Positions 19,350 to 32,579 of a DNA stretch of 64,000 nt are shown here, piece after piece. A program made the translations under genes and the position numbers. The notes beneath the pieces were generated by a model that saw only the letters and a list, made by a program, of their open reading frames with translations, did no database searches and was not told where the DNA came from. The DNA lies in the NCBI GenBank assembly GCA_947627735.1, contig CANQXG010000009.1, positions 1-64,000 on the forward strand. The letters are read 5' to 3'. The DNA comes from an uncultured Oscillospiraceae bacterium (GTDB taxonomy: Bacteria > Bacillota > Clostridia > Oscillospirales > Oscillospiraceae). Numbering within the stretch: the first letter of the stretch is position 1; each line of letters begins with the position of its first letter.

Positions 19350-19378
19350 TTGCATAATCAAGAACAGTTTGATATAAT
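19350..19378 (+). promoter_or_regulatory. Promoter of the VTC-CotH polymer operon
   Basis: TTGCAT (19350-19355) and TATAAT (19373-19378) are separated by exactly 17 bases. The first gene starts about 95 bases downstream, leaving a leader of roughly 90 nt rich in short GC inverted repeats. Confidence 0.7.
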
Positions 19379-19474
19379 CATTCAGTATTTTCAGACTGGG
19401 CGCGGAGCGCCGTACACAATGCGCTTCGCGGGGCATATCATAGCATCGGACCCGGCGGACAGGGGGGATCGGAC

Positions 19475-20170
19475 TTGGTCGAGGTCTTGCGGCAGGAAAA
19501 GAAATACCTTCTCCCGCTGCCGGAGGCGCGCCGGCTCAGCGGCAGGCTACAGGCCGTCATGCTCCAGGACAGCCACAACGGCCCCCGGGGCTATCGGATA
19601 CGGTCGCTGTACTTCGACACGCTTGACGACAGGGACTTCGCGGACAAGGTGGACGGCCTGGAGCTGCGCCGGAAGATACGGCTGCGGTGCTACGACCCGA
19701 ACAGTGATTTCGCGGTGCTGGAGATGAAGCAAAAGCAGGGGCAGTACCAGAAAAAGCGGTCTCTGCGGATGAGCCGGGAGGATGCCAAGAGGCTGATCCG
19801 GGGCGACTACGAGATAATGCTGCGCCACGACGAGCCATTCGCGAAGGAGTGCTACGGGCTGATGAACACGCTGTGCTACCGGCCGAAGGCGGTGGTGGAG
19901 TACAAGCGGCAGGCGTTCATCGCCAGGGAAAACAGAATAAGGGTCACACTGGACAGCGACATCATCGCCACAGAGGCGAACTTCGACATTTTTTCTCCGG
20001 AGCTGCTCCAGTATCCGGTACTAGACCCTTTTCAGGTGGTGCTTGAAGTTAAGTACAATGGCTTTCTGCTCAGCTACATCAAAAAAGCGGTGAGCACGGC
20101 GGACCGGTCGGAATTTTCGGTGAGCAAGTATTGTCTGGCCCGGAGCGTGGGCCATCATTACGATCCATAA
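19475..20170 (+). CDS. VTC-domain polyphosphate polymerase-like protein
   Basis: 231-aa VTC domain, the tunnel-shaped catalytic fold of eukaryotic Vtc4 that makes polyphosphate from ATP. Recognisable elements are RQEKKYLLP at the start, YRIRSLYFDT, LRRKIRLRCYD (basic tunnel residues), VLEMKQKQG, VVEYKRQAF and VVLEVKYNGF (acidic metal ligand and Lys). The start is TTG at 19475 after AGGGGGGATC. It is soluble and probably membrane-associated through the next gene product, a DUF4956 protein. First gene of a nine-gene plus-strand operon. The product could be polyphosphate or a phosphate-linked modification of the envelope polymer. Confidence 0.9.
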   Translation: MVEVLRQEKKYLLPLPEARRLSGRLQAVMLQDSHNGPRGYRIRSLYFDTLDDRDFADKVDGLELRRKIRLRCYDPNSDFAVLEMKQKQGQYQKKRSLRMSREDAKRLIRGDYEIMLRHDEPFAKECYGLMNTLCYRPKAVVEYKRQAFIARENRIRVTLDSDIIATEANFDIFSPELLQYPVLDPFQVVLEVKYNGFLLSYIKKAVSTADRSEFSVSKYCLARSVGHHYDP

Positions 20171-20186
20171 GAGAGGTGCGGAAAAC

Positions 20187-20864
20187 ATGAGAGAGAAGCT
20201 GTTTGAGCTGCTTTCCAGCGAGGGCGATCTGAGTCTGGAGACCATCCTTGTGCGTCTGGCGGCGGCGACGATCATCGGGATATTCATCTATTTTTCCTAC
20301 TGGATGTCCCACAGCGGCAGTGTTTACAGCAAAAAATTCAACATCACGCTGGTGTCCATGACGCTGGTGACCACGACGGTCATGATCGTCATCGGGAACA
20401 ACCTGGCGCTGAGCCTGGGCATGGTGGGTGCGCTGTCGATCGTGCGATACAGGACGGCGATAAAGGATACGAGGGATACACTGTATATTTTCTGGACGAT
20501 CGTGGTGGGCATATGCTGCGGCGCGGGGGATTACCGGGTGGCGGCGGTGGGAAGCGTGTTCATCTTCCTGGTGCTGCTGGTGTTCGGCAGAGTGAAGAAC
20601 GACGACAGGATCTTGCTGATCGCGTCCATCAGCCGGACGAACGAGGAACGGCTGGAAGCCTTGGTATTCCAGCGTTTTGGGCGTAAAGCGGTGCTGCGGG
20701 TGAAGAACACGACGGAGTCCAGCGCGGAGTTTATTTTCGAGCTGGGACGGCGGACGATGGACAAAGACAAGCGCAATCCCCAGCCTCTGACGGACATGAT
20801 CTACGGCCTGGGCGGGGTGGACTACGTGAATATCGTGAGCCAAAACGACAGCATCGGAAGCTGA
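20187..20864 (+). CDS. DUF4956 membrane protein
   Basis: 225-aa protein with an N-terminal membrane half (three or four helices: VRLAAATIIGIFIYFSYWM, ITLVSMTLVTTTVMIVIG, and helices around FWTIVVGICCG and VFIFLVLLVFG) and a C-terminal cytoplasmic domain (VKNDDRILLIASIS onward) resembling a small alpha/beta fold. The conserved DUF4956 motif LSLGMVGALSIVRYRTAIKD lies between helices and carries basic residues facing the membrane. DUF4956 genes commonly accompany VTC and CotH genes. It starts 16 bases after the VTC stop. It probably anchors or gates the VTC enzyme. Confidence 0.88.
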   Translation: MREKLFELLSSEGDLSLETILVRLAAATIIGIFIYFSYWMSHSGSVYSKKFNITLVSMTLVTTTVMIVIGNNLALSLGMVGALSIVRYRTAIKDTRDTLYIFWTIVVGICCGAGDYRVAAVGSVFIFLVLLVFGRVKNDDRILLIASISRTNEERLEALVFQRFGRKAVLRVKNTTESSAEFIFELGRRTMDKDKRNPQPLTDMIYGLGGVDYVNIVSQNDSIGS

Positions 20865-20899
20865 AAAAGGGCAAAAAAGACGCAAAAATAAGAAAAAAT

Positions 20900-20970
20900 G
20901 TGCAGTTTTGGGGCACTAAAAGGGCAGTTTTGGGGCACAAAAGTGCAGTTCTGAGGTCAGAAGGGGCAGT
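20900..20970 (+). repeat. Four phased direct repeats, 21-22-bp period
   Basis: GCAGT occurs at 20902, 20924, 20945 and 20966, each in a related unit (TGCAGTTTTGGGGCACTAAA, GGCAGTTTTGGGGCACAAA, TGCAGTTCTGAGGTCAGAA, and a shorter GGCAGTATGAGG). The last unit overlaps the CotH ribosome-binding site and start. Spacing equals two helical turns. Confidence 0.75.
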
Positions 20971-22497
20971 ATGAGGAACAAGATCCTGTTTTCAATACTG
21001 GCTGTGGTGATGCTGGCGGGCGTATTTTGCATGCCGGTGCTGAGCGCGTCGGGGCAGAACAGGTCGGAGCGGTACCACCAGCATCTGGAGGAGCCGGGGT
21101 ATACCCCCTGCGCCGACCACGGGTCGGGCACGTTCTGCACCCACCTGCCCATCGTGGTCATCGACACGGAGGGACAGAAGGTCCCGGGAACGCTGACCGG
21201 TGAAAAGGACCTGTTCCAACAGACGACCTATACCACGGCGGAGGACGGCACGGACTACATCAACGTGTCGGTGAAGGTGATCGACAACGAGGAGGGCAAC
21301 AACCACCTGACGGACGAGCCGGCGCTCACCACCAGGAGCCTGTTCCGCATCCGGGGCAACTCCTCCCGGCGGTTCGAGAAGCTCCCCTATCTGCTGAAAT
21401 TCGTCAACGAGGACGGCACCGACAACGACGTGGAGGTCATGGGGATGGACGCCCACCACGAGTGGGCGCTGAACGGCCCCTATCTGGACAAATCACTTGT
21501 GCGCAACTACATGTGGTACAACATAGCCGGGGAGATCATGGAGTACGCCCCGAACGTGCGGTACTGCGAGGTGTTCCTGAACGGGGAATACAAGGGCCTG
21601 TATCTGATGGTGGAGACCATCACCAACGGGGGACCGGAAGGAGGACGGCTGGACCTGTCCGACTCTGTCAAGGGCACCGATGTGATGGGATACCTGCTGC
21701 GCATCGACCGGCCCACGGAGGTGGACCTGGAGACCACCCGGGACATCAATGTTTTCACGGAGCGCATAGGGATCGAGGGCGCAGACGTGGCCGTCCGCTA
21801 TCCGGGCAAGACAAAGCTGACGGAGGACCTGGCCCGGCAGATAGAGCTGGAGTTCTCCGCCTTTGAAAAGGCGGTCTACTCCTACGACCACGACACAGAG
21901 GATTACGGCTACTGGAACTATATCGACACCGACAGCTTCATCGACTATTGGATCATCAACGCGTTCACCTGCAACCAGGACGCTGGGTCCGCATCCACAT
22001 ACATATATAAAGAACCCGGCGGGAAATACAAGCTGTGCGTGTGGGACTTCAACAACTCATGCGACAACTACCCAGAGGACCCCTATGACCCCAGCCTGTT
22101 CCTGGCGCGGGGCATGCCGTTTATAAACGCCCCCTATTTCGCCATGCTCTTCCGGGACGACAAGGAGTGCTTCGCGGAGCAGGTCATCGAGCGGTATGAG
22201 CAGCTGCGCCAGACATACCTGAGCGACGAGTATCTGCAGGACTACATCGACAGCACCATCGAGTGGCTGGGGCCGGCGGTGGAGCGGAATTATGACCGGT
22301 GGAAGGACGCGTTTGGCAGTCAGATGCTGGAAAGCAAGGAAGGCGTCGGCCTGGCAGACAGAAACCAGTACACGACGGAGGAAGCGACTGCCTATCTGAA
22401 GGAGTGGCTGGCGGCCCGGGGGGCGTTCATGGACGAACACATCGATGTTCTGAACTTTTACGGGCACCCGTCCACCTATAAGAAATGGGAGCACTGA
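20971..22497 (+). CDS. cotH: CotH-family protein kinase, secreted
   Basis: 508-aa CotH kinase-like protein with a signal peptide (about residues 1-26, ending near VLSASG). CotH proteins are secreted kinases of atypical fold; Bacillus CotH phosphorylates spore-coat proteins. Landmarks: TRSLFRIRGNSSRRFEKLPY (the substrate-strand motif with RGNSS), HHEWALNGPYLDKSLVRNYM, YCEVFLNGEYKGLYLMVETI with the catalytic-type GxYxGxYxxxE, and WDFNNSCDN as the metal-binding DxN. It lies in an envelope-polymer operon rather than a spore-coat cluster, so its target is probably a secreted or surface protein of this system. A 106-base gap with phased repeats precedes it. Confidence 0.9.
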   Translation: MRNKILFSILAVVMLAGVFCMPVLSASGQNRSERYHQHLEEPGYTPCADHGSGTFCTHLPIVVIDTEGQKVPGTLTGEKDLFQQTTYTTAEDGTDYINVSVKVIDNEEGNNHLTDEPALTTRSLFRIRGNSSRRFEKLPYLLKFVNEDGTDNDVEVMGMDAHHEWALNGPYLDKSLVRNYMWYNIAGEIMEYAPNVRYCEVFLNGEYKGLYLMVETITNGGPEGGRLDLSDSVKGTDVMGYLLRIDRPTEVDLETTRDINVFTERIGIEGADVAVRYPGKTKLTEDLARQIELEFSAFEKAVYSYDHDTEDYGYWNYIDTDSFIDYWIINAFTCNQDAGSASTYIYKEPGGKYKLCVWDFNNSCDNYPEDPYDPSLFLARGMPFINAPYFAMLFRDDKECFAEQVIERYEQLRQTYLSDEYLQDYIDSTIEWLGPAVERNYDRWKDAFGSQMLESKEGVGLADRNQYTTEEATAYLKEWLAARGAFMDEHIDVLNFYGHPSTYKKWEH

Positions 22498-22528
22498 GCA
22501 AGGTCCGGGACAGGAAGGAGGGCAGCCG

Positions 22529-24802
22529 GTGAAAAAGTTCATCATCGTGGTCACGGCATTCGTGGCGGTGCTGTTCGTCGGCTATCAGGCCTATTACCGG
22601 CTGGGGGCGTACATAGACCTGCGGCCCAACACGCCGGTGACCACCTTTATGAAGACGGACGAGGACACCATCTACATGGAAAAAGAGGGGGAGTATGTCC
22701 CCTTTGAGATACGGGGCGTGGACATGGGCGTGGGCATCCCCGGCCAGTGGGCCACGGACTTCGCCATCGAGAAGGACACCTACATCCGCTGGTTCGGCAT
22801 GATCCAGGACATGGGGGCCAACACCATCCGGGTGTATACCATCCTGCACCAGGACTTCTACGACGCCCTTTACGAGTATAACACCCAGCGGGAGGAGGAC
22901 GGACTGGAGCCGCTGTACCTGCTGCACGGGGTGTGGGTGAACGACTATGTGCTCTTCTCCCACCGGGACGCCTATGACCCGGAGTTTCTGGACACGTTCC
23001 TGGAGGACTGCCGCACGGTGATCGACATCATCCACGGGGACCGGTCCCTGAGCCTGGGCTATGAGAACCGGGGCAGCGGCAACTACCGGCGCGACGTGTC
23101 CAAGTGGGTGCTGGGCTACATCCTGGGGGTGGAATGGGAGGACTACACGGTGGTGTATACCGACCAGGCCCAGGAGGAGAACAGCAGCTACGAGGGGACG
23201 TACCTCTATACCACCGACAACGCCCGCCCCTTCGAGGCCATGCTGGCCCAGGTGGGGGACAAGGCCATCGAGTACGAGTCCAACCGATACAAGCAGCAGC
23301 GGCTGGTGGCCTTCGCCAACTGGCCCACCACCGACCCGTTCCGCTATCCTATGAGCGTGGTTTTCTCCAAACAAAAAATGGGACAGGTGGACGTGGAGCA
23401 CATCCAGAGCAAGAACACCTTCATCTCCGGCATGTTCGCCTCCTACCACATCTATTCCTATTACCCGGACTATCTGGAGATCATGCGCGACGTCGGGGCC
23501 AGTTACACCGATGAAGAGATAATACAGCGCATCGGAACGGCCCGCGCGTCAAACATACTTTACCGCATGTCCAAGCTGAAAGGCCCCAGCATCGAGGACT
23601 ATGTATACGAAGGGGATTACAAAGACTCCCAGGGACGCTATAATACATATCTTGCCTATCTGAAGGCACTGACCCGCTATCACACCATGCCGGTGGTCAT
23701 CTCCGAGTTCGGAGTCACCACCGGCCGCGGCATGGCCCAGCTCGACCGGAACACCAACCGCAACCAGGGCCACATGTCCGAGCAGGAGCAGGGCCAGGCC
23801 ATCATCGACTGCTTCGAGGACATCCGGGCCGCAGGCTGCGCCGGCGGGTGCGTGTTCACGTGGCAGGACGAGTGGTTCAAGCGGACGTGGAACACCATGC
23901 ACGCGGTGGACCTGGACTACACGGCCTACTGGAGCGACTACCAGACCAACGAGCAGTTCTTCGGCCTGCTCAGCTTCGACCCGGGCGAGGAAAAAAGCGT
24001 GTGCTACGTGGACGGGGACATCTCCGAGTGGACGGAGGAGGACCTGGTCAGCAGCAACGGGGACGCGGACCTGTCCATGAAATACGACGAGAAATTCCTC
24101 TACTTCCTGGTGCACAAGGAGGGTCTGGACCAGGAGGGGGACAGCCTGTACATCCCCATAGATACCCAGCCGAAGGTGGGCAGCACCTACGCCGAGGAGC
24201 AGGACGTCAGCTTTGAGCGGCCCGCCGACTTTCTCATGGTCATCCATGGGAAAGAGGACAGCCACGTCTATGTCCAGGAGCGGTACGAGTGTCTCAACGC
24301 CATCTACGGCGCGTCCTATTACGGGATAAACCCCTATTATGACCCGCCGGAGGTGCACAGCCCCCGCTTTACGCAGATCGGCATGGCGCTCACACTGGAG
24401 GATTACATCCCCGATTACAGCGCGATATATCAGCCGGCGGGCGAGATGTTCGAGACCGGCAAGCTGCGGCACGGCAACGCCAACCCGGACAGCGAGGCGT
24501 TCGACTCCCTGGCGGACTTCATGTTCGCGGGGGACTATGTGGAGATACGCATCCCCTGGGAGCTGCTCAACTTCTCCGACCCCTCCAACATGATGATCCA
24601 CGACGACTACTACGAGTGCTACGGCATCGAGAATTACCACATCGACGAGATGTATGTGGGCGTGACCGACGGACAGCAGAAGGGCTGGCGCACGCCGATG
24701 GACGCCTTTGCCCTGGAGGGCTGGGGGAAGGACGTGACGTACCACGAAAGGCTGAAACGGTCCTATTACATGCTGAAGGACTACTGGACCGGCCTGGCGT
24801 GA
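22529..24802 (+). CDS. Membrane-anchored glycoside-hydrolase-like protein
   Basis: 757-aa protein with an uncleaved N-terminal membrane anchor (FIIVVTAFVAVLFVGYQAYY). Residues about 50-470 look like a TIM-barrel glycosidase of the GH2/GH5 clan: FEIRGVDMG, GANTIRVYTILHQDFYDALY, and PVVISEFGVTTGRG, where the Glu is in the position of the catalytic nucleophile, then TWQDEWFKRTWN. A C-terminal region of about 270 aa (from VDGDISEWTEED) resembles a carbohydrate-binding or DOMON-like beta domain. It should face outward. In the operon it may trim, transfer or remodel the polymer made by the GT2. The family was assigned by motif only. Confidence 0.7.
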   Translation: MKKFIIVVTAFVAVLFVGYQAYYRLGAYIDLRPNTPVTTFMKTDEDTIYMEKEGEYVPFEIRGVDMGVGIPGQWATDFAIEKDTYIRWFGMIQDMGANTIRVYTILHQDFYDALYEYNTQREEDGLEPLYLLHGVWVNDYVLFSHRDAYDPEFLDTFLEDCRTVIDIIHGDRSLSLGYENRGSGNYRRDVSKWVLGYILGVEWEDYTVVYTDQAQEENSSYEGTYLYTTDNARPFEAMLAQVGDKAIEYESNRYKQQRLVAFANWPTTDPFRYPMSVVFSKQKMGQVDVEHIQSKNTFISGMFASYHIYSYYPDYLEIMRDVGASYTDEEIIQRIGTARASNILYRMSKLKGPSIEDYVYEGDYKDSQGRYNTYLAYLKALTRYHTMPVVISEFGVTTGRGMAQLDRNTNRNQGHMSEQEQGQAIIDCFEDIRAAGCAGGCVFTWQDEWFKRTWNTMHAVDLDYTAYWSDYQTNEQFFGLLSFDPGEEKSVCYVDGDISEWTEEDLVSSNGDADLSMKYDEKFLYFLVHKEGLDQEGDSLYIPIDTQPKVGSTYAEEQDVSFERPADFLMVIHGKEDSHVYVQERYECLNAIYGASYYGINPYYDPPEVHSPRFTQIGMALTLEDYIPDYSAIYQPAGEMFETGKLRHGNANPDSEAFDSLADFMFAGDYVEIRIPWELLNFSDPSNMMIHDDYYECYGIENYHIDEMYVGVTDGQQKGWRTPMDAFALEGWGKDVTYHERLKRSYYMLKDYWTGLA

Positions 24803-24818
24803 GAGGAGGTGACAGGCC

Positions 24819-25943
24819 GTGACCGGAGGGGAAACACTGCTTTACGGCTACGGCGCGGTGTGCGTCTGCATGCTGATCTTCAACATCATATATATCTTCT
24901 TCCAGAAGGGGCAGAATGAGCGGCTGGACAAACGGCGGCAGAAGTTCGTCCGGGGGATGGGCGGACAGCTGGAGATCATCCGGGACGGCGGCCAGCCGGA
25001 GGAGAAGTTCGTGAAGCGGCTGGAAAAGCGGCTGCACCGGGTGAACAACCTGATCGCCTTCGAGTGGGCGCTGACGGAGATAGCCGACAGGAAGCAGTTC
25101 GACGAGGAGCTGCTGGCGTTCCAGATGCAGACAAGGGAGATGATCCAGCGGCTGGCAGCGCTTTATAAGGACAGAGAGGATATGCAGGCGGCGTACTTCG
25201 CCTATTTCATCGCCCGGCACCGGGTGGTGCGGTTCATGGACGAGGACGCGATGCAGGATATCATGCTGGAGTACGTGGGGAAGAACAACCTGTACTGCCG
25301 GGTCAACGCCATGCAGGCGCTGTACGCCTTCGGCACGCCGGCGTCCATCGCCAGGGCCGTGGAGATGATGAGCCGGGCGGGAAGCGCGTTCAACGAGAAG
25401 ATACTGACCGACGGGCTGCTGTCCTATAAAGGGGACCATAAGGCCCTGACAGAGGCGCTGTGGGCGCGGTTCGAGAAGCTGAGCACGCGGTTCCAGCTGG
25501 CCGTGCTGAATTATGTGCGGTTCAAAAGCGGGGATTATAAGGAGCGGATGTTCGGCATACTGACCGACGCGAGGCGGGATAAGGAGCTGCGGCTGGCCGC
25601 CGTGCGGTACTTCGGGCGGTATGTGTACGAGCCGGCGCGGGAGATCATGCTGGGGTTCTTGGCCGACAGCGATCCGAAGGATTGGGAGTACGCGGCGATC
25701 AGCGCCACGTGCCTGGCGCCCTATGAGGGGGAGGATGTGTCGGCGGCGCTGATGGACGCGATGCATAGCTCCAACTGGTACGTGCGGTACAATGCGTCCG
25801 TGAGCCTGGACAGCCGGGATATGGATTACAGCGACCTGATCGAGGTCGTGGGCGGCCGGGATCGGTACGCGCGGGAGATGATGCTGTATCGGCTGGATGC
25901 CAAGCGCTTGGAGCAGCAGGAGAGGCAGGAGGTGAGCGTATGA
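24819..25943 (+). CDS. HEAT-repeat protein with N-terminal membrane anchor
   Basis: 374-aa protein: one N-terminal membrane helix (YGAVCVCMLIFNIIYIFF), a basic linker, then an all-helical domain of HEAT-like repeats in the second half (LRLAAVRYFGRYVYEPAREIM, WEYAAISATCLAPYEG, WYVRYNASVSL). Such repeats form curved protein-binding scaffolds. Its stop overlaps the glycosyltransferase start (ATGA), so the two are translationally coupled and probably form a complex at the inner face of the membrane. The start at 24819 is a GTG after GAGGAGGTG. No enzymatic motif is seen. Confidence 0.85.
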   Translation: MTGGETLLYGYGAVCVCMLIFNIIYIFFQKGQNERLDKRRQKFVRGMGGQLEIIRDGGQPEEKFVKRLEKRLHRVNNLIAFEWALTEIADRKQFDEELLAFQMQTREMIQRLAALYKDREDMQAAYFAYFIARHRVVRFMDEDAMQDIMLEYVGKNNLYCRVNAMQALYAFGTPASIARAVEMMSRAGSAFNEKILTDGLLSYKGDHKALTEALWARFEKLSTRFQLAVLNYVRFKSGDYKERMFGILTDARRDKELRLAAVRYFGRYVYEPAREIMLGFLADSDPKDWEYAAISATCLAPYEGEDVSAALMDAMHSSNWYVRYNASVSLDSRDMDYSDLIEVVGGRDRYAREMMLYRLDAKRLEQQERQEVSV

Positions 25944-27355
25944 GTCCCGGGGTGCGGGATGCGGTGCAGGCGTTTTATGACTTCGTGGGCGCGTTCTTCG
26001 TGCTGTACATGTTCGGGTACGCCAGCTTCCTGTTTCTGTCCGTGACGGTGGGTTCGTCCACCCTGTTCGGCGCCCGGCGGCGCAATACGCTGAAAAGCGA
26101 GCTGCAGTCGGTGTACTATGTGCCGGTGTCCGTGCTGGTGCCGGCCCATAACGAGAGCGTCACCATCGGCGAAACGGTGCACTCGCTGCTGCTGCTGGAT
26201 TATCCGCTGTACGAGATCATCGTGGTGGACGACGGCTCCACCGACGATACCAGCCAGGTGCTCATCGACCGGTTCCATCTGCAGCGCATCAACCGGCCCA
26301 TCCAGCAGGCCATCCGCTGTCAGCCCATCGAGGCGGTGTATGAGTCCCGGGCCTATAAGGTGCCCATCACCCTCATACGCAAGCGCAACGGGGGAAAGGG
26401 CGACGCGCTGAACATGGGCATCAACGCCTCCCGGTATCCCTACTTCGTGTGCATGGACGCCGACTCGGTGCTCCAGCGGGATTCCCTGGAGATGCTGGTG
26501 CGGCCCGTGCTGGAGGATGAGAACGTGGTGGCCGTGGGCGGAGCCGTCCGGCCCGGCAACGGCGCGGAGATCGTGGACGGGAGGGTGGTCAAGTACCGGA
26601 TGCCCTCCAAGATCCTGCCCTGCATGGAGGTGCTGGAGTACGACCGGTCATTCCTGGCCGCCCGTATCCTGTTCGACAAATTCAACGGCTCCATCATCAT
26701 CTCCGGGGCCTTCGGCCTGTTCAAAAAGAGCGTGGTGGTGGACGTGGGCGGCTACAGCGTCAACACCATGGGCGAGGACATGGAGCTGGTGGTGAAGCTG
26801 CACGTGTTCTGCCGGGAGAACAACATCCCCTACCGCATCCGGTACGCCACCGACGCCATATGCTGGACCCAGGCGCCGGAGCGGATGCAGGACCTGGTCA
26901 AGCAGCGCCGGCGCTGGCACATCGGGCTGTTCCAGAGCCTGACCAAGCACCGGAACATACTGATGAACCCCAAGTACGGCATGGTGAGCTTCATCTCCTA
27001 CCTGTACTTTCTGCTGTACGAGCTGCTGTCGCCCTACATCGAGGTGTTCGGCGTGTTCACCATCGGCCTGGCGGGCGTGCTGGACTTTCTGAACTTCCCG
27101 TTCTGGGTGCTGTACCTGGGCATATACATCATCTTCTCCGCCATACTGTCCCTGACGGCGTTCTTCTCCCGCATCCACACCATCGACCTGCGGCTGGGCT
27201 TTGCTGACGCGGTGAAGGCGCTGCTGCTGTGCGCGTTGGAGGTGTCCTGCCTGCGGTTCATCCTGGCATGGGTGCGCATGACGGCCCTGATCGGGTACAG
27301 GAAGAAGAAAATGGTGTGGGGCAAGATCGAGCGGAAGAAGATCAATTTCCGCTGA
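25940..27355 (+). CDS. Processive family-2 glycosyltransferase (PgaC/cellulose-synthase type)
   Basis: 471-aa membrane glycosyltransferase. After an N-terminal helix the GT-A domain has VLVPAHNES, VVDDGSTDDT (about residue 95), the DxD as CMDADS (about 172), GED (about 277, the catalytic base region) and QRRRW (about 322-326, acceptor and processivity). Four C-terminal helices complete the membrane channel. This set is that of synthases which polymerise and extrude beta-linked polymers such as poly-GlcNAc, cellulose or hyaluronan. It is the probable polymer synthase of the operon. No PilZ domain is attached, so c-di-GMP control would have to act through a partner. Confidence 0.93.
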   Translation: MSPGVRDAVQAFYDFVGAFFVLYMFGYASFLFLSVTVGSSTLFGARRRNTLKSELQSVYYVPVSVLVPAHNESVTIGETVHSLLLLDYPLYEIIVVDDGSTDDTSQVLIDRFHLQRINRPIQQAIRCQPIEAVYESRAYKVPITLIRKRNGGKGDALNMGINASRYPYFVCMDADSVLQRDSLEMLVRPVLEDENVVAVGGAVRPGNGAEIVDGRVVKYRMPSKILPCMEVLEYDRSFLAARILFDKFNGSIIISGAFGLFKKSVVVDVGGYSVNTMGEDMELVVKLHVFCRENNIPYRIRYATDAICWTQAPERMQDLVKQRRRWHIGLFQSLTKHRNILMNPKYGMVSFISYLYFLLYELLSPYIEVFGVFTIGLAGVLDFLNFPFWVLYLGIYIIFSAILSLTAFFSRIHTIDLRLGFADAVKALLLCALEVSCLRFILAWVRMTALIGYRKKKMVWGKIERKKINFR

Positions 27356-27389
27356 CCCATTGTTTGCAGTGATGAAAGGAGATAAGACC

Positions 27390-27488
27390 ATGGGACTGTC
27401 TGAAATGAAAAAGAGCCTCCCGGGTCCTCAGACAGAGAGCGTCCGCCGCGGCGCGGCCCGTCCGGCGGAGCGGGAGGCGGGTGTCTGA
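27390..27488 (+). CDS. Possible 32-aa leader peptide before the EAL gene
   Basis: ATG at 27390 with AAAGGAGA upstream opens a 32-codon frame (MGLSEMKKSLPGPQTESVRR and so on) ending in TGA at 27486, three bases before the GTG start of the EAL protein and in the same frame. It could be a leader peptide, a coupling frame, or the real start of the downstream gene interrupted by a nonsense change. The residues are hydrophilic and do not look like a signal peptide. Confidence 0.4.
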   Translation: MGLSEMKKSLPGPQTESVRRGAARPAEREAGV

Positions 27489-27491
27489 GCC

Positions 27492-29342
27492 GTGGAGAAC
27501 GCTGTCATCTATGTGGCGGGAGACCCGGAGGCGTATCCCGTAGAATATTACGACGAGCAGACCGGCGCCTATCAGGGGCTGATCCCGGCGCTGCTGGAGC
27601 GGTTCGGCCGGGAGCAGGGCTATGACGTGCGCTACTACGAGCCGGACAAAGGCGACCAGCGCCAGACTCTGGCGGAGGACCGGCAGGTGGACATCATCTC
27701 CGACGGGGGCGGCGGCGCCGACTTCCGCCACGACGCCGGGGGCGAGGTCGTGCTCTTGGAAACGGAGCAGGACGGCCAGAGCGTGGTATATAAGCTGCTA
27801 GTGACGGAGGTGGCGCCGGAGGGGCTGGCGGATCAGCTGCGCAGCTTCCTGGCCGGGGTGGAGGAGCAGGACCGGACGGGCCTGCTGGTCCAGTCTGCCC
27901 GGCGGGAGAAGCCCGTGGACACCACTCTGATACAGATCGGCGGGGCCGTGGCGGGCGCGCTGCTGGTGATCCTGGCGGCGGTGGCCGTGTTCATGGCGCG
28001 CCACTACCGCCGGCGCATCCGTTCCATGGAGATGGACCGGGAGACCGACACGGTCACCGGCCTGGGCAACCGGGACTATCTGGAGCGGAACTGCAACACA
28101 TACATCAACGACCAGAACAAGATCCTCTACCGGCTGCTGTACGTGTTCGTGGACACGGACCAGCTGGACAAATACTTCGGCCGCAGCGTCACGGACGAGT
28201 ATGTCCGGGCGGTGGCCCTGGCTCTGCAGGAGCACACGGGGGACATGGACATCCTCTCCCGGGTGTCCGACACCGGGTTCGTGCTGCTGCGCCTGACCAT
28301 GGACGATCAGGACGAGCAGCACTGGCTGAAGACGGTGCTGGACAGGATCGACGGCGAGTCCCCGGACAAGACCTCCGGCGGGGAGCGGTATTACGCCGTG
28401 GGCAGCTATCAGATCCGGCCCACCGACCGGGACCTGTACGGGATGATCTTCGACGCGTCCCAGTGCGCCCAGTCCGCCTACCTGGACGGGGAGGTGTTCC
28501 GGGCGTGCACCGACGAGGTGATCCGGAACCTGGCCGTGGAGCGCCAGTTCCGGGAGGACATGCGCCGGGGCCTGGACAGCGGGGAGTTTTTGCTGTATCT
28601 GCAGTTTTACGTGGACAGCGCCACCGGCGATATCGTGGGGGGCGAGGCCCTGTCCCGGTGGGATCACCCGGGGCGGGGGCTGCTGATGCCGGGGGACTTT
28701 CTGCCCATGATGGAGCGGGAGCACCTGGTGCCCCAGCTGGACTACCGGTGTCTGGAGAACGCCTGCGCGTTCCTGCAGGACATGTATAAACAGGGCCGGG
28801 AGCGGTTTTTCGTTTCCTGCAACTTCGCCAAGGAGACCTTCTCCGACCCGGCGTTCCCGGAGGAGTGCCGGAAGGTGGTGAGGAAGTACGGCTTCCCCGT
28901 CAAATGGCTGGTGTTCGAGCTGAAGGAGACCGGCACGGACCGGGAGATAGAGCAGATCCGGGAGAACATCCGCCGGGTGAAGGAGCTGGGCGTCACGGTG
29001 GCGCTGGACGACTTCGGGGAGCTGTTCGCCTCCTTCGCCGACGTGGAGGACATCCCGCTGGACATCGTGAAGATCAGCCGCCGCCTGGTGGAGGGCATCG
29101 GCTCCAAGAGCGGCGAGAGCGTCATGCGGGGCATGATCCGGGTCAGCCGGGAGCTGGGCTTCGGGGTCATGGCCGAGGGCGTGGAGAGCGAGGAGCAGGC
29201 CGATTTCCTGCGCAGAGAGGGCTGCGAGGCCATGCAGGGGTTCCTGTTTTACAGGCCGCTGCCGGAGTGGGAGGCGCGAAAGATCATCGTGGCCGGCGGA
29301 AGATCCCACCCGGAGCAGAAAGCGGTCGGGACCGCGCCATGA
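27492..29342 (+). CDS. Sensor-like protein with degenerate GGDEF and intact EAL domain
   Basis: 616-aa c-di-GMP-related protein. N-terminal 150 residues resemble a shortened solute-binding (SBP_bac_3) domain (VIYVAGDPEAYPVEYYDEQT, GLIPALLERFGREQGYD), then a membrane helix (about 152-171), a GGDEF fold in which the active-site loop reads RVSDTGF instead of GGDEF (about 258), and an EAL domain. The EAL residues needed for phosphodiesterase activity are present: GGEALSRW (about 383), the Asn of SCNFAK, FELKET, LDDFGE (about 506), DIVKISRR, AEGVESEEQ and QGFLFYRPL. It should hydrolyse c-di-GMP, linking the operon to that messenger. Oddly there is no signal peptide before the sensor domain. Confidence 0.85.
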   Translation: MENAVIYVAGDPEAYPVEYYDEQTGAYQGLIPALLERFGREQGYDVRYYEPDKGDQRQTLAEDRQVDIISDGGGGADFRHDAGGEVVLLETEQDGQSVVYKLLVTEVAPEGLADQLRSFLAGVEEQDRTGLLVQSARREKPVDTTLIQIGGAVAGALLVILAAVAVFMARHYRRRIRSMEMDRETDTVTGLGNRDYLERNCNTYINDQNKILYRLLYVFVDTDQLDKYFGRSVTDEYVRAVALALQEHTGDMDILSRVSDTGFVLLRLTMDDQDEQHWLKTVLDRIDGESPDKTSGGERYYAVGSYQIRPTDRDLYGMIFDASQCAQSAYLDGEVFRACTDEVIRNLAVERQFREDMRRGLDSGEFLLYLQFYVDSATGDIVGGEALSRWDHPGRGLLMPGDFLPMMEREHLVPQLDYRCLENACAFLQDMYKQGRERFFVSCNFAKETFSDPAFPEECRKVVRKYGFPVKWLVFELKETGTDREIEQIRENIRRVKELGVTVALDDFGELFASFADVEDIPLDIVKISRRLVEGIGSKSGESVMRGMIRVSRELGFGVMAEGVESEEQADFLRREGCEAMQGFLFYRPLPEWEARKIIVAGGRSHPEQKAVGTAP

Positions 29343-31216
29343 AAAGACCCATCCGTTTTCTGTGGGCGGCGGCGTCGGCGGCGCTGGCGCTGTGTATGCT
29401 GCTGGGCTGCGCGGCGGGAGAGCTGTCCGCCGACACCGCGCCGGCGGCCACAGCCGCCCCCGCGCCGACCGCCACGGAGGCCCCCGCCGCCGAGGAGGAG
29501 GCGCTGCCCGGCCTGGAGCAGATCATGGACCCGGCGGAGCGGGTGTGGCGCTATACGGACGATCCGGTCCGCCTGGCCGCCATCCGGGACGACGGGTGGC
29601 TGGCGGCGGACTTCGACGACAGCGGCTGGCTGGCCGCGGCGGGCTCCTTCGGCGCCAATGAGGGGCGTCTGAAGGAGGTAGCCGGGGAGGAGCCGAGCGT
29701 TTGCCTGCGCCACTATCTGCCCGACGGGCGGACCGTGCCCGTGTACTATTTCCGCCTGCGCTTCACCGCCCGACCGGCGGAGGTGACGGAGCCGCTGAGC
29801 GCCGAGATCCTGTATGACGACGCGGCGGTGGTGTATCTCAATGGCCGGGAGATATTCTCCGGCAACGTCCCCGACGGCGGGTATCCCGACGCCGGCGCCT
29901 ACGGCTGCGCCGGGTTTTACGACGAGATGCCCCGGGGCACGGTGGTGCTGGACGGCGCCTCCCTCCGGGAGGGGGAGAACGTGCTGTGCGTGGCGCTGCA
30001 CCAGGCCGACGACTCCAGCAGCGACATCTTCTTCGCCCTGGGCGCTTTCACCGCCGGGGCGGCGGAGCAGGACGATCTGCGCGCCGATACCCTGTGCCTG
30101 GGCGTGGGGGAGGATGAAGGCCAGATGCTCGTCACCTGGCGGGGGCCTGCCCTGGAGGGCGCCTGCGTCCAGGTGGAGGCCGGGGACCGGCTCACCGACG
30201 GGGCAGCCGTGTATCCCGCGGCCCGGAGCTATGAGGAGGACGGGCTGTGCACCTACCGGGCGGTGATCGACGGGCTGGAGCCGGGGGATTATGTCTACCG
30301 GCCCGTGGACCTCTATCCGGGCCAGACCGGGCACTTCACCGTGACCGACCCGGGGGAGGGGTTCACGTTTTTGTGCCACGGGGACGCCCAGATCCGGGAT
30401 GGGGACGACCTGGAGGCCACGTGGGCGTATCAGACCCTGGCGGACCACGCCATGGGCGGGGGCGGGGCGCAGTTCGTGCTGTCCCTGGGCGACCAGGTGG
30501 ATGAGGCCGGCAGCCGGGCGCAGTATCGGCGCTTCACCGCCGCGCCGGTGCTCAAATCCGTGCCGCTGGCGGCGGTGCTGGGCAACCATGAAACGGGCAG
30601 CCGGGCGTTCAGCCAGGCGTTTTCCCTGCCCAATATGGACGCGGCCACGGTCACCGACGCCGGGGATATGAGCGGGGATTACTGGTTCGTGCGGGGCAAT
30701 ACCCTGTTTCTGTGCCTGAACAGCAACAATGAGGACGTGGAGGCCCACCGGCAGTTCATCCGGCAGGCCGTGGACAGCTGCGCGGCCCGGTACGGCGAGC
30801 CGGTGTGGACGGTGGCGGCGTTCCACTTCGCCCCCTTCTCCCCCGGCACCCACGCCGATGACGAGGCGGTGCGGCAGACGCGGGAGGAGTATCCCGCCAT
30901 GCTGGCGGAGGCGGGGGTGGACGTGGTGTTCTCCGGCCACGACCACATCTATGCCCGCTCCTGGCCCATGGACGGGCAGGAGCCTGTCCGGGACGGCGGG
31001 GAGGGGATCGTCTACTTCACCCTGGGTTCCGCCACCGGCAGCAAGTTTTACGACATATCCGAGGGGACGTTCGACTATGTGGCCTTCGCCGACGGGGAGC
31101 GCTGGCCGGCCATGAGCCGGGTGGATGTGACGGACAGCTCCTTTACCGTCACCACCTATCAGCTGCGGGGAAACGACATCCTCCTGCTGGACAGCTATCG
31201 GATCGACAGGCCCTGA
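29339..31216 (+). CDS. Metallophosphoesterase lipoprotein (purple-acid-phosphatase type)
   Basis: 625-aa surface lipoprotein: signal ending CMLLGC, a Pro/Ala/Thr-rich linker, a galactose-binding-like beta domain (AADFDDSGWLAAAGSFG, VVYLNGREIF), a purple-acid-phosphatase N-terminal Fn3-like domain (GEDEGQMLVTWRG), then the calcineurin-like catalytic domain with HGDAQ, GDQVDEAG (about 384), GNHETG (about 415), FHFAPF and SGHDHIYAR (about 532). These supply the dinuclear metal site, which looks complete. It starts inside the EAL stop codon (ATGA). Located outside the membrane in a VTC/CotH operon, it could remove phosphate from a phosphorylated polymer or protein. Confidence 0.87.
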   Translation: MKRPIRFLWAAASAALALCMLLGCAAGELSADTAPAATAAPAPTATEAPAAEEEALPGLEQIMDPAERVWRYTDDPVRLAAIRDDGWLAADFDDSGWLAAAGSFGANEGRLKEVAGEEPSVCLRHYLPDGRTVPVYYFRLRFTARPAEVTEPLSAEILYDDAAVVYLNGREIFSGNVPDGGYPDAGAYGCAGFYDEMPRGTVVLDGASLREGENVLCVALHQADDSSSDIFFALGAFTAGAAEQDDLRADTLCLGVGEDEGQMLVTWRGPALEGACVQVEAGDRLTDGAAVYPAARSYEEDGLCTYRAVIDGLEPGDYVYRPVDLYPGQTGHFTVTDPGEGFTFLCHGDAQIRDGDDLEATWAYQTLADHAMGGGGAQFVLSLGDQVDEAGSRAQYRRFTAAPVLKSVPLAAVLGNHETGSRAFSQAFSLPNMDAATVTDAGDMSGDYWFVRGNTLFLCLNSNNEDVEAHRQFIRQAVDSCAARYGEPVWTVAAFHFAPFSPGTHADDEAVRQTREEYPAMLAEAGVDVVFSGHDHIYARSWPMDGQEPVRDGGEGIVYFTLGSATGSKFYDISEGTFDYVAFADGERWPAMSRVDVTDSSFTVTTYQLRGNDILLLDSYRIDRP

Positions 31217-31252
31217 GCCGCGGGGCAGGGAGCGGGAAGCGGCGAGGTGGAT

Positions 31253-32536
31253 ATGAAAAAACGACGGGCTGCGTCCATCGCAGCGACAATACTGCTCCTG
31301 CTGGCAGGCGGGTGCCGGGGGACGGACAGTCCCCTGGCCGCGGCGCCGGCGCCGACGGTATCTCCGCCGCCGGTATGGCTGGAGGCGGAGGATGTGACCG
31401 CCAATGATGCGTTCGAGCTGGCCGATCCGGCGGAGGCGGCGGACAGGGGGGCCAGCCTCTATTGCTGGTGGCCCTATCTGCGAAACGCCGGCGCCTTCGC
31501 CCGGGGGGCGGCGCTGCTGGCCGACCTGGGGGTGGACAGGCTGTATCAGCAGCTTACCTGCGCGGAGCTGGCCATGGAGGACACCGCCGATATGGTGGCC
31601 GCGCTGGCGGATATGGGCGTGCAGACGGTGCTCCTGACCGGGGATCGGGAATGGCAGGAAACGGGGCTGGACGAGTACAGGGCGCTGATCGACGCGCTGG
31701 ATGAGTTCAACAGCACCATCGGCGCGGACCACCCCATCCCCGGGGTGGCGCTGGACGTGGAATACTACACCACCGACGCGTGGCGCGCGGAACCGGAGAG
31801 GTGCTTTGCCGAGCATATCGAGCTGATGGAGCAGGCATATGACTACGCCCATGAGAAGGGGCTGTTCGTGGTGCAGGTCATCCCCGCCGTGTACGACGAG
31901 GTCGACAGGGAGCTGTTTGAGCGGTTCGCGGAGCGCTGCTGCGACGAGCTGTCGGTGATGAACTACGTCAAAGACGTGGCGGTGAGCAGGATATGGAATG
32001 AGGTGCACGTCTGCCGCCGGCTGGGAAAGCCCATAGAGACCATTTACGAGACCCAGCCGCTCAGCGAGTATTACGGCGTCACCGAGGATGTCACCTATTT
32101 CTACGACGGTCTGGACGCCCTGGCGGAGGACTACGGGCAGATGGAGCGGGTGTACGGCGACGTGGGGCTGGCCTACCACCACTACGCGAGCATGCACGCG
32201 CTGCGGACCGGCGGGGTGATCGTGAGCGTGTATCTGTACACCACCGACGATGACCCGGCCCGGGACGAGAACGGCCAGCCCGCCGGCATCCCCTTCATCA
32301 CCCTCACCGGCGACGACGGAAGCGTCCTCACCGGGACGCCCTACCGGCCCTATCCGGAGGGGGAGCACGGGGAGAGCTGCTACCTTGTCTTTGGGGCGAA
32401 GCGGGACGTGGCATACACCGTAAGCCTGGGGGGCGACGGCTATGAGCCGCAGCCGGAGAGGAACGAGCCGATGGCGTTTTCCGGCGGCGACCCGGCCCTG
32501 GCATTCAACGTGGCCTTCCACGTCCGGCCAAAATAA
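31253..32536 (+). CDS. TIM-barrel-like lipoprotein, unknown glycosidase-like
   Basis: 427-aa lipoprotein (signal ending LLLAGGC). Start chosen as the ATG at 31253, five bases after GAGGTGG. The mature part looks like an alpha/beta barrel: LYCWWPYLRNAGAFARG, LGVDRLYQQL, VQTVLLTGDREW, IPGVALDVEYY with acidic residues in the position of barrel catalytic sites, FVVQVIPAVYDEVD and ELSVMNYVKD. I do not recognise the family; the pattern resembles putative polysaccharide hydrolases or deacetylase-like barrels found in exopolysaccharide loci. Last gene before a strong terminator, so it closes the operon. Confidence 0.7.
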   Translation: MKKRRAASIAATILLLLAGGCRGTDSPLAAAPAPTVSPPPVWLEAEDVTANDAFELADPAEAADRGASLYCWWPYLRNAGAFARGAALLADLGVDRLYQQLTCAELAMEDTADMVAALADMGVQTVLLTGDREWQETGLDEYRALIDALDEFNSTIGADHPIPGVALDVEYYTTDAWRAEPERCFAEHIELMEQAYDYAHEKGLFVVQVIPAVYDEVDRELFERFAERCCDELSVMNYVKDVAVSRIWNEVHVCRRLGKPIETIYETQPLSEYYGVTEDVTYFYDGLDALAEDYGQMERVYGDVGLAYHHYASMHALRTGGVIVSVYLYTTDDDPARDENGQPAGIPFITLTGDDGSVLTGTPYRPYPEGEHGESCYLVFGAKRDVAYTVSLGGDGYEPQPERNEPMAFSGGDPALAFNVAFHVRPK

Positions 32537-32540
32537 AATA

Positions 32541-32579
32541 CCGTCCCCAGCCATGAAGCGGCCGGGGACGGCTATTTTT
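32541..32579 (+). terminator. Terminator of the VTC-CotH operon
   Basis: Stem CCGTCCCC pairing with GGGGACGG, followed by CTATTTTTA. It marks the 3' end of the 13-kb operon. Confidence 0.8.

Follow-up and report, generated by a model that had tools for sequence, protein, structure and literature searches.

An operon of nine plus-strand open reading frames (ORFs), spanning positions 19475 to 32536 of a 64,000-nucleotide stretch from an uncultured Oscillospiraceae bacterium (positions 1 to 64,000 of contig CANQXG010000009.1, assembly GCA_947627735.1; the whole stretch is called the window here), probably encodes a synthase-dependent exopolysaccharide system joined to a polyphosphate and phosphorylation module, with turnover of cyclic di-GMP (c-di-GMP) encoded beside it. 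From the sequence evidence we give this reading a probability of about 0.6. The core of the operon, six genes in the order VTC-DUF4956-CotH-ORF4-HEAT-GT2, is real and widely shared, and it joins two portable modules, a phosphate triad (VTC-DUF4956-CotH) and a synthase module (ORF4-HEAT-GT2). The reading follows from the conserved order of these genes and the single clade of their VTC proteins, from near-invariant residues in VTC, CotH and GT2 and a preserved EAL active site, from the response regulators or GGDEF proteins that accompany triad-free synthase modules in other classes, and from published deletions of DUF4956 or CotH genes in a pel locus, which altered both aggregation and the Pel polymer.

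Conservation of the core was surveyed with ORF4 in one genome per species (84,980 species), and the best 80 of 344 stretches were kept. The six-gene order is preserved in 68 of these 80 best relatives (67, and L147 on closer look), while contig ends cut ten of the other twelve (L102, L114, L116, L126, L131, L154, L157, L158, L163, L168). Because its order is conserved, the core is not a chance grouping, an argument that does not extend to all nine genes as a unit. The co-occurrence of VTC, DUF4956, CotH and GT2 in related genomes, which the earlier note had proposed as its own test, is thus borne out. The loci come from taxa including Oscillospiraceae, Lachnospiraceae, Flavonifractor, Anaerotignum, Monoglobus, Blautia and Anaerostipes. 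Two cultured commensals, Flavonifractor sp. An10 (L113) and Anaerotignum lactatifermentans An390 (L140), have all six core genes. Within the family, the HEAT protein matched 9 of 150 genomes, counting the window's own. Of the remaining eight, seven were fetched, and each carries the core in order, the VTC gene of L016 being cut by the contig start. The weakest HEAT match (G082, 3.2e-6) was left out of this wider-stretch fetch.

The two modules come apart beyond the window's class. A further survey covered 398 genomes of the phylum with ORF4 at E<=1e-20 and found it in 22 of them, own included, the other 21 lying outside the class; 20 of the 23 places listed besides the window's own were fetched. 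A full core was seen at one locus (L186), and eight (L187, L188, L190, L197-L199, L201, L202) carry ORF4, HEAT and GT2 with neither VTC, DUF4956 nor CotH in the drawn neighbourhood; the synthase module therefore exists without the phosphate triad. Two loci (L191, L193) have ORF4 and GT2 only, and at nine places ORF4 stands without an adjoining HEAT gene. L187, L190 and L197 carry response-regulator genes, L198 and L199 a gene of the same size, and L191, L201 and L202 GGDEF genes. The three loci L197-L199, from large genomes, share an arrangement of ORF4-HEAT-GT2, a gene of response-regulator size, one of sugar-dehydrogenase size and a gene homologous to that of the last lipoprotein in the window. 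The regulator-size and dehydrogenase-size genes were identified in L197 only, the latter as a nucleotide-sugar dehydrogenase, which hints that the polymer of these loci contains an acidic sugar.

The triad opens with a soluble VTC-domain protein of the polyphosphate-polymerase fold (19475..20170, plus strand, as are all genes below; PF09359, 6.6e-40; no hydrophobic segment). A search of the PDB with the single sequence gave no match, and a 25-row profile matched yeast Vtc4 (2.2e-19). In a hand-counted alignment, K10, R69, R71, K85, K94, R145 and R156 of the window protein correspond to K200, R264, R266, K281, K294, R361 and R373 of Vtc4, which we take to line its catalytic tunnel. These residues are invariant in all 80 distinct core sequences (the residue counts for VTC, CotH and GT2 refer to distinct sequences), so that the basic catalytic tunnel of the yeast complex is retained. 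Yeast VTC carries an SPX and a membrane domain; at only 231 residues the window protein is the tunnel domain alone, with no room for either, and a separate DUF4956 protein stands in their place. The latter is an MgtC-like membrane protein (20187..20864; PF16316, 5.9e-14; PF02308 below cut-off) with three to four hydrophobic segments, the hydropathy scan giving four peaks of which two overlap. The third member is a CotH kinase-family protein with an N-terminal hydrophobic export segment (20971..22497; PF08757, 1.3e-56), whose profile matched the CotH structure 5jd9 (2.2e-22). Aligned to that structure, D337 and D359, presumably the catalytic and metal-binding aspartates, are kept in 82 and 83 of 83 distinct core sequences. 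The CotH gene of L085 (3424-4836) is split into two ORFs, as is the GT2 gene of L071 (7808-9206), by decay or assembly error.

In the synthase module, GT2 (25940..27355; PF00535, 2.2e-28) is a processive-type membrane glycosyltransferase whose gene overlaps by 4 bases that of a HEAT-repeat protein with an N-terminal hydrophobic segment (24819..25943; HEAT_2, PF13646, 4.5e-08). Its D97-D98-G99, D173-A174-D175, E279-D280 and Q322-R323-x-R325-W326 motifs are kept in 83-84 of 84 distinct sequences, and several hydrophobic segments lie near its C-terminus; a membrane GT2 with processive motifs, as expected of a synthase-dependent exopolysaccharide system, is present. ORF4 (22529..24802) is membrane-anchored by an N-terminal hydrophobic segment and probably extracellular; one part of it resembles glycoside hydrolases, and its C-terminal part is unassigned. 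It was called glycosidase-like in the earlier note; no Pfam family was found for it, and what supports the name is a weak match of a 16-row profile to the glycoside hydrolase family 2 catalytic-domain protein 9fz9 (E=0.0017). The putative nucleophile E393 is kept in 87 of 92 members and E202 in 83 of 92. Because these residues are not kept throughout and the fold match is weak, enzyme activity is uncertain for some members.

Downstream of the core lies an EAL phosphodiesterase gene (27492..29342; PF00563, 1.9e-61), whose product has one hydrophobic segment, a degenerate GGDEF domain lacking its motif and a partial SBP_bac_3-like sensor (below the Pfam cut-off). Eight positions that we take to be catalytic (glutamates, Asn, the Asp pair, Lys and Gln) are kept in 72-77 of 77 sequences, as expected of an active phosphodiesterase. 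Pfam matches to VTC, DUF4956, CotH, HEAT, GT2, EAL and phosphatase domains, together with these EAL residues and the GT2 motifs, bear out most of the earlier note's domain calls, including its c-di-GMP phosphodiesterase and its GT2 of processive type, whose gene overlaps that of HEAT. Among 80 EAL-domain proteins from these loci, not one has an intact GG[DE]EF motif. In 68 of 95 loci an EAL gene is found after ORF4, both on one strand, and 32 of 95 have, upstream and on either strand, a gene for a cyclase whose motif is intact; these amount to at most 90 different loci, because the ORF4 survey shares at least five contigs with the HEAT search above and the VTC survey described below (L012/L144, L011/L127, L054/L164, L062/L106, L089/L103). 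The window's own genome (86% complete) was searched for the EAL and GGDEF families. It holds one EAL match, that of the operon, and two GGDEF matches, one full-length, on a contig other than the operon's (G000:C7:33010-33453). The operon's EAL is likewise the sole EAL match in G136 and G146, and the idea that EAL occurs only where the operon does is ruled out by matches in 63 of 150 family genomes.

The EAL frame is shared by an ATG at 27390 and is interrupted by a TGA at 27486, so its start is placed at the GTG at 27492 where the frame opens. The 32-codon stub thus delimited (27390..27488) is a probable remnant of a DivIVA-like coiled-coil gene. It matches the first 20 residues of the corresponding protein of L091 and L145 (55%, both from residue 1; E=0.012-0.013 with 47 sequences searched). 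A coiled-coil gene, with longest ORFs of about 150-240 residues, stands between GT2 and EAL in 8 of 15 core loci of the VTC and HEAT searches and in 47 of 80 loci of the ORF4 survey; among three proteins scanned, those of L066 (2460-2900) and L013 (6973-7461) exceed the Pfam DivIVA cut-off (PF05103) and that of L054 falls below it. Since the stub matches the start of the relatives' protein, the window has probably lost a DivIVA-like member present in over half of its relatives. The gene is missing in some relatives too (e.g. L094, L100, L109).

These components suggest how the system may work. GT2, coupled to the membrane-anchored HEAT protein, would polymerise a nucleotide sugar and extrude the chain, as family knowledge and the kept motifs indicate, and ORF4 may bind or trim that chain outside the membrane. 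VTC, with DUF4956 as its membrane partner, would convert ATP to polyphosphate at the inner face; the two genes are consistently paired, and it is the activity that is predicted. CotH could phosphorylate the new matrix outside the cell, with the glycan as target or else a protein of the matrix, ORF4 for instance. The EAL protein would lower c-di-GMP and may in this way tune output, with a cyclase gene upstream in a third of the loci, and the DivIVA-like protein of many relatives probably places the machine at curved membrane. PilZ is not used by all synthase-dependent exopolysaccharide systems, and of 16 core genomes one has it; the receptor for c-di-GMP, if the nucleotide acts on this machine, is probably not PilZ, and HEAT, DUF4956 and the DivIVA-like protein are candidates for the role.

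The earlier note considered the system probably undescribed, a claim that is half right. A gene order that agrees with the six-gene core is tabulated at NELoc-2 of Clostridium perfringens (CP4_0458-CP4_0468), where the gene table gives VTC, a membrane "tubulin/FtsZ" of 222-226 aa, CotH, a 685-aa protein of unknown function, HEAT and a GT2 "chitin synthase" (PMC2879425). The comparison is by gene table, with DUF4956 putatively assigned from size and place. In contrast to the window, VTC and its partner occur twice at NELoc-2, flanking a resolvase; there is a sigma factor upstream, and EAL is absent from the 11 genes listed. As far as the available text of this 2010 listing goes, no function was shown, and an avirulent strain has the locus too (PMC2879425). 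A later survey placed a polysaccharide deacetylase-family gene at NELoc-2 in 18 of 23 positive strains (PMC11677781). A literature search for a GT2-HEAT-CotH or VTC-DUF4956-CotH system, with subscription papers and preprints outside its scope, had two pel and three C. perfringens papers as the relevant ones among those listed; the available text of a report on a CotH protein near an iron-stalk cluster shows no VTC (PMC8250860).

The triad itself, as CotH, polyphosphate polymerase and DUF4956, has been reported as a pel accessory (PMC7112168). As the accessible parts of two papers describe them, the Gram-positive pel loci resemble the window in having the triad beside a synthase (genes for CotH, the polymerase PPP, DUF4956 and DUF4832), with a cyclase/phosphodiesterase gene replacing DUF4832 in Bifidobacteria, and differ from it in that the synthase is Pel rather than GT2-HEAT (PMC7112168, PMC12345266). 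The triad genes are contiguous in the window, as in the pel loci, in an order unlike that of Streptococcus intermedius, where locus numbering (1594 CotH, 1593 polymerase, 1592 DUF4956) puts CotH at the opposite end (PMC12345266). According to the sections available of that 2025 paper, no synteny of these three genes was found outside pel; deletion of the DUF4956 gene lowered aggregation and raised Pel, and deletion of the CotH gene lowered both (PMC12345266).

Pel-only synteny of the triad is contradicted by the window and its relatives, because no PelG match exceeds the cut-off in the 16 core genomes. Membership of the Pel family is rejected on this ground, weaker PelG matches below the cut-off being present in two of the 16. 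A search of 25 genomes (17 of them with non-core CotH loci, and one of the 25 shared with the 16) likewise found no PelG at E<=0.001, the control matching in 1 of 14. Membership among the poly-N-acetylglucosamine (PNAG; Pga/Ica) synthases was also rejected. PgaC_IcaA is the best NCBIfam model for all three GT2s scanned, with 150-153 bits against an equivalog cut-off of 422, and in contrast to PNAG systems none of the nine window genes belongs to a deacetylase family in Pfam, a HEAT partner being found instead. Much the same gene set was listed earlier without a function, which makes the operon a notable variation on polymer systems already known and less than wholly new.

In a tree of 80 VTC proteins, rooted for drawing only, the 15 core sequences form one clade (100/98) that adjoins a group of 16, 12 of them with CotH. 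The window VTC pairs with two genomes of another family (97/86), apart from six other core sequences of its own family, and this grouping makes horizontal transfer between families likely. The HEAT search gave no match in G095, the second species of the window's genus.

The wider distribution of VTC was sampled across 391 genomes of the window's class, 199 of which have the gene, own included; 73 loci were taken, about every second one among the matches listed. DUF4956 directly follows VTC in 71 of the 73, CotH lies in the fetched flank in 26 and the whole core in 8; the triad also stands at loci that lack this synthase. Both loci without DUF4956 (L056, L065) belong to near relatives that share a different neighbourhood. 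A Cthe_2159-type carbohydrate-binding protein, a family name that rests on one representative, lies near VTC-DUF4956 in 27 of the 65 non-core loci (including L083:11049-12926); these loci are mostly without CotH, L018 and L021 having it as well, and perhaps represent surface polyphosphate in a wider setting. A two-component system is found at many of the 65, often with the Cthe_2159-type protein.

Several observations weigh against a phosphate-linked polymer system. VTC stands without CotH in the fetched flank at 47 of the 73 sampled loci and without this core at 65 of 73, and because of the latter VTC-DUF4956 may have its general function elsewhere. Among the 80 best relatives, L141 lacks the triad and L139 retains no more of it than the end of CotH, despite 9 kb of upstream sequence being covered; these are natural ORF4-HEAT-GT2-EAL loci without a full triad. 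The putative acid/base and nucleophile of ORF4 are absent from some members, and a PilZ receptor was sought in the window's own genome with none found. Finally, the S. intermedius polymerase mutant SIR_1593 still aggregated and, in the available text, is not among the mutants reported with altered Pel (PMC12345266). It is unlikely that the triad serves general phosphate or polyphosphate homeostasis (an MgtC-like DUF4956 with VTC) and is merely co-transcribed with a synthase whose polymer is phosphate-free. The non-core VTC loci, 63 of them with DUF4956 adjoining, and the Cthe_2159-type proteins and two-component systems found there favour such a role; however, the VTC of the core belongs to a clade of its own and accompanies the synthase in different families, and the triad also occurs in pel loci, where, in the published excerpts, two of its genes alter the polymer phenotype (PMC7112168, PMC12345266).

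The target of CotH may tentatively be placed elsewhere than on the glycan: a secreted protein such as ORF4 could be phosphorylated instead, by which CotH would regulate the machine. The characterised CotH described in the accessible text is a spore-coat protein kinase (PMC7112168, PMC12345266), and, CotH itself apart, ORF4 alone among the conserved core proteins is predicted to lie outside; however, the core has no conserved gene for a dedicated substrate, and sequence cannot separate a protein target from a glycan one. That GT2 might move single sugars onto a lipid or wall carrier, with no polymer extruded, accords with the unmatched equivalog cut-offs of the named synthases (at best 150 of 422 bits), but is very unlikely given the kept processive motifs including QRxRW, the several C-terminal hydrophobic segments and PgaC_IcaA as best model. 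A more specific version of the exopolysaccharide reading is speculative and improbable: VTC-DUF4956 would be a two-protein bacterial VTC machine making polyphosphate and passing it through the membrane, and CotH would use it as donor to phosphorylate the nascent polysaccharide. It fits the pairing and the fact that ATP is scarce outside the cell, and if true would mean an extracellular glycan phosphorylation powered by exported polyphosphate, a plug-in for unlike synthases (GT2-HEAT here, Pel elsewhere).

In layout the operon is compact, with intergenic distances of 16, 106, 31, 16, -4, 136, -4 and 30 bases in gene order. The nine plus-strand genes described earlier are all present, with a gap before EAL of 136 bases rather than 16-36. 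The promoter described with them is a putative one (19350..19378, plus strand), having a weak -35 (TTGCAT) and an extended -10 (TGATATAAT at 19370-19378), and lies under the consensus-scan threshold; the terminator-like hairpin (32540..32573) is indeed strong, and T-runs on both sides make it usable in either direction. At 0.63 the operon has the same GC content as the window, the six core genes having 0.57-0.62 and the last three 0.66-0.70. The two tail genes are optional. One encodes a lipoprotein phosphatase of calcineurin-like, purple-acid type (29339..31216; Metallophos, PF00149, 5e-11; PDB 6git, 5.4e-05) and the other a lipoprotein of unknown fold with the lipobox LAGGC (31247..32536). 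The latter had been called a barrel lipoprotein; the lipobox is there, and the protein has no match in the PDB search, Pfam giving one weak below-cut-off HAD match. Homologues occur in 18 of the 80 relatives for this lipoprotein and in the fetched stretches of 5 of 80 for the phosphatase, in two of which it lies upstream of VTC. Both are ruled out as core parts by this occurrence, and the proposed opposition of VTC and CotH to the phosphatase is not supported as a feature of the system.

The HEAT-coupled synthase, with EAL turnover encoded beside it and mostly no PilZ in the genome, suggests that a c-di-GMP receptor, should one exist, is of a kind not yet recognised. For NELoc-2, associated with necrotic enteritis since 2010, the operon provides a functional hypothesis. 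The triad of CotH, polyphosphate polymerase and DUF4956 emerges as a portable module on unlike synthases and not a peculiarity of Pel, and its role becomes testable outside streptococci.

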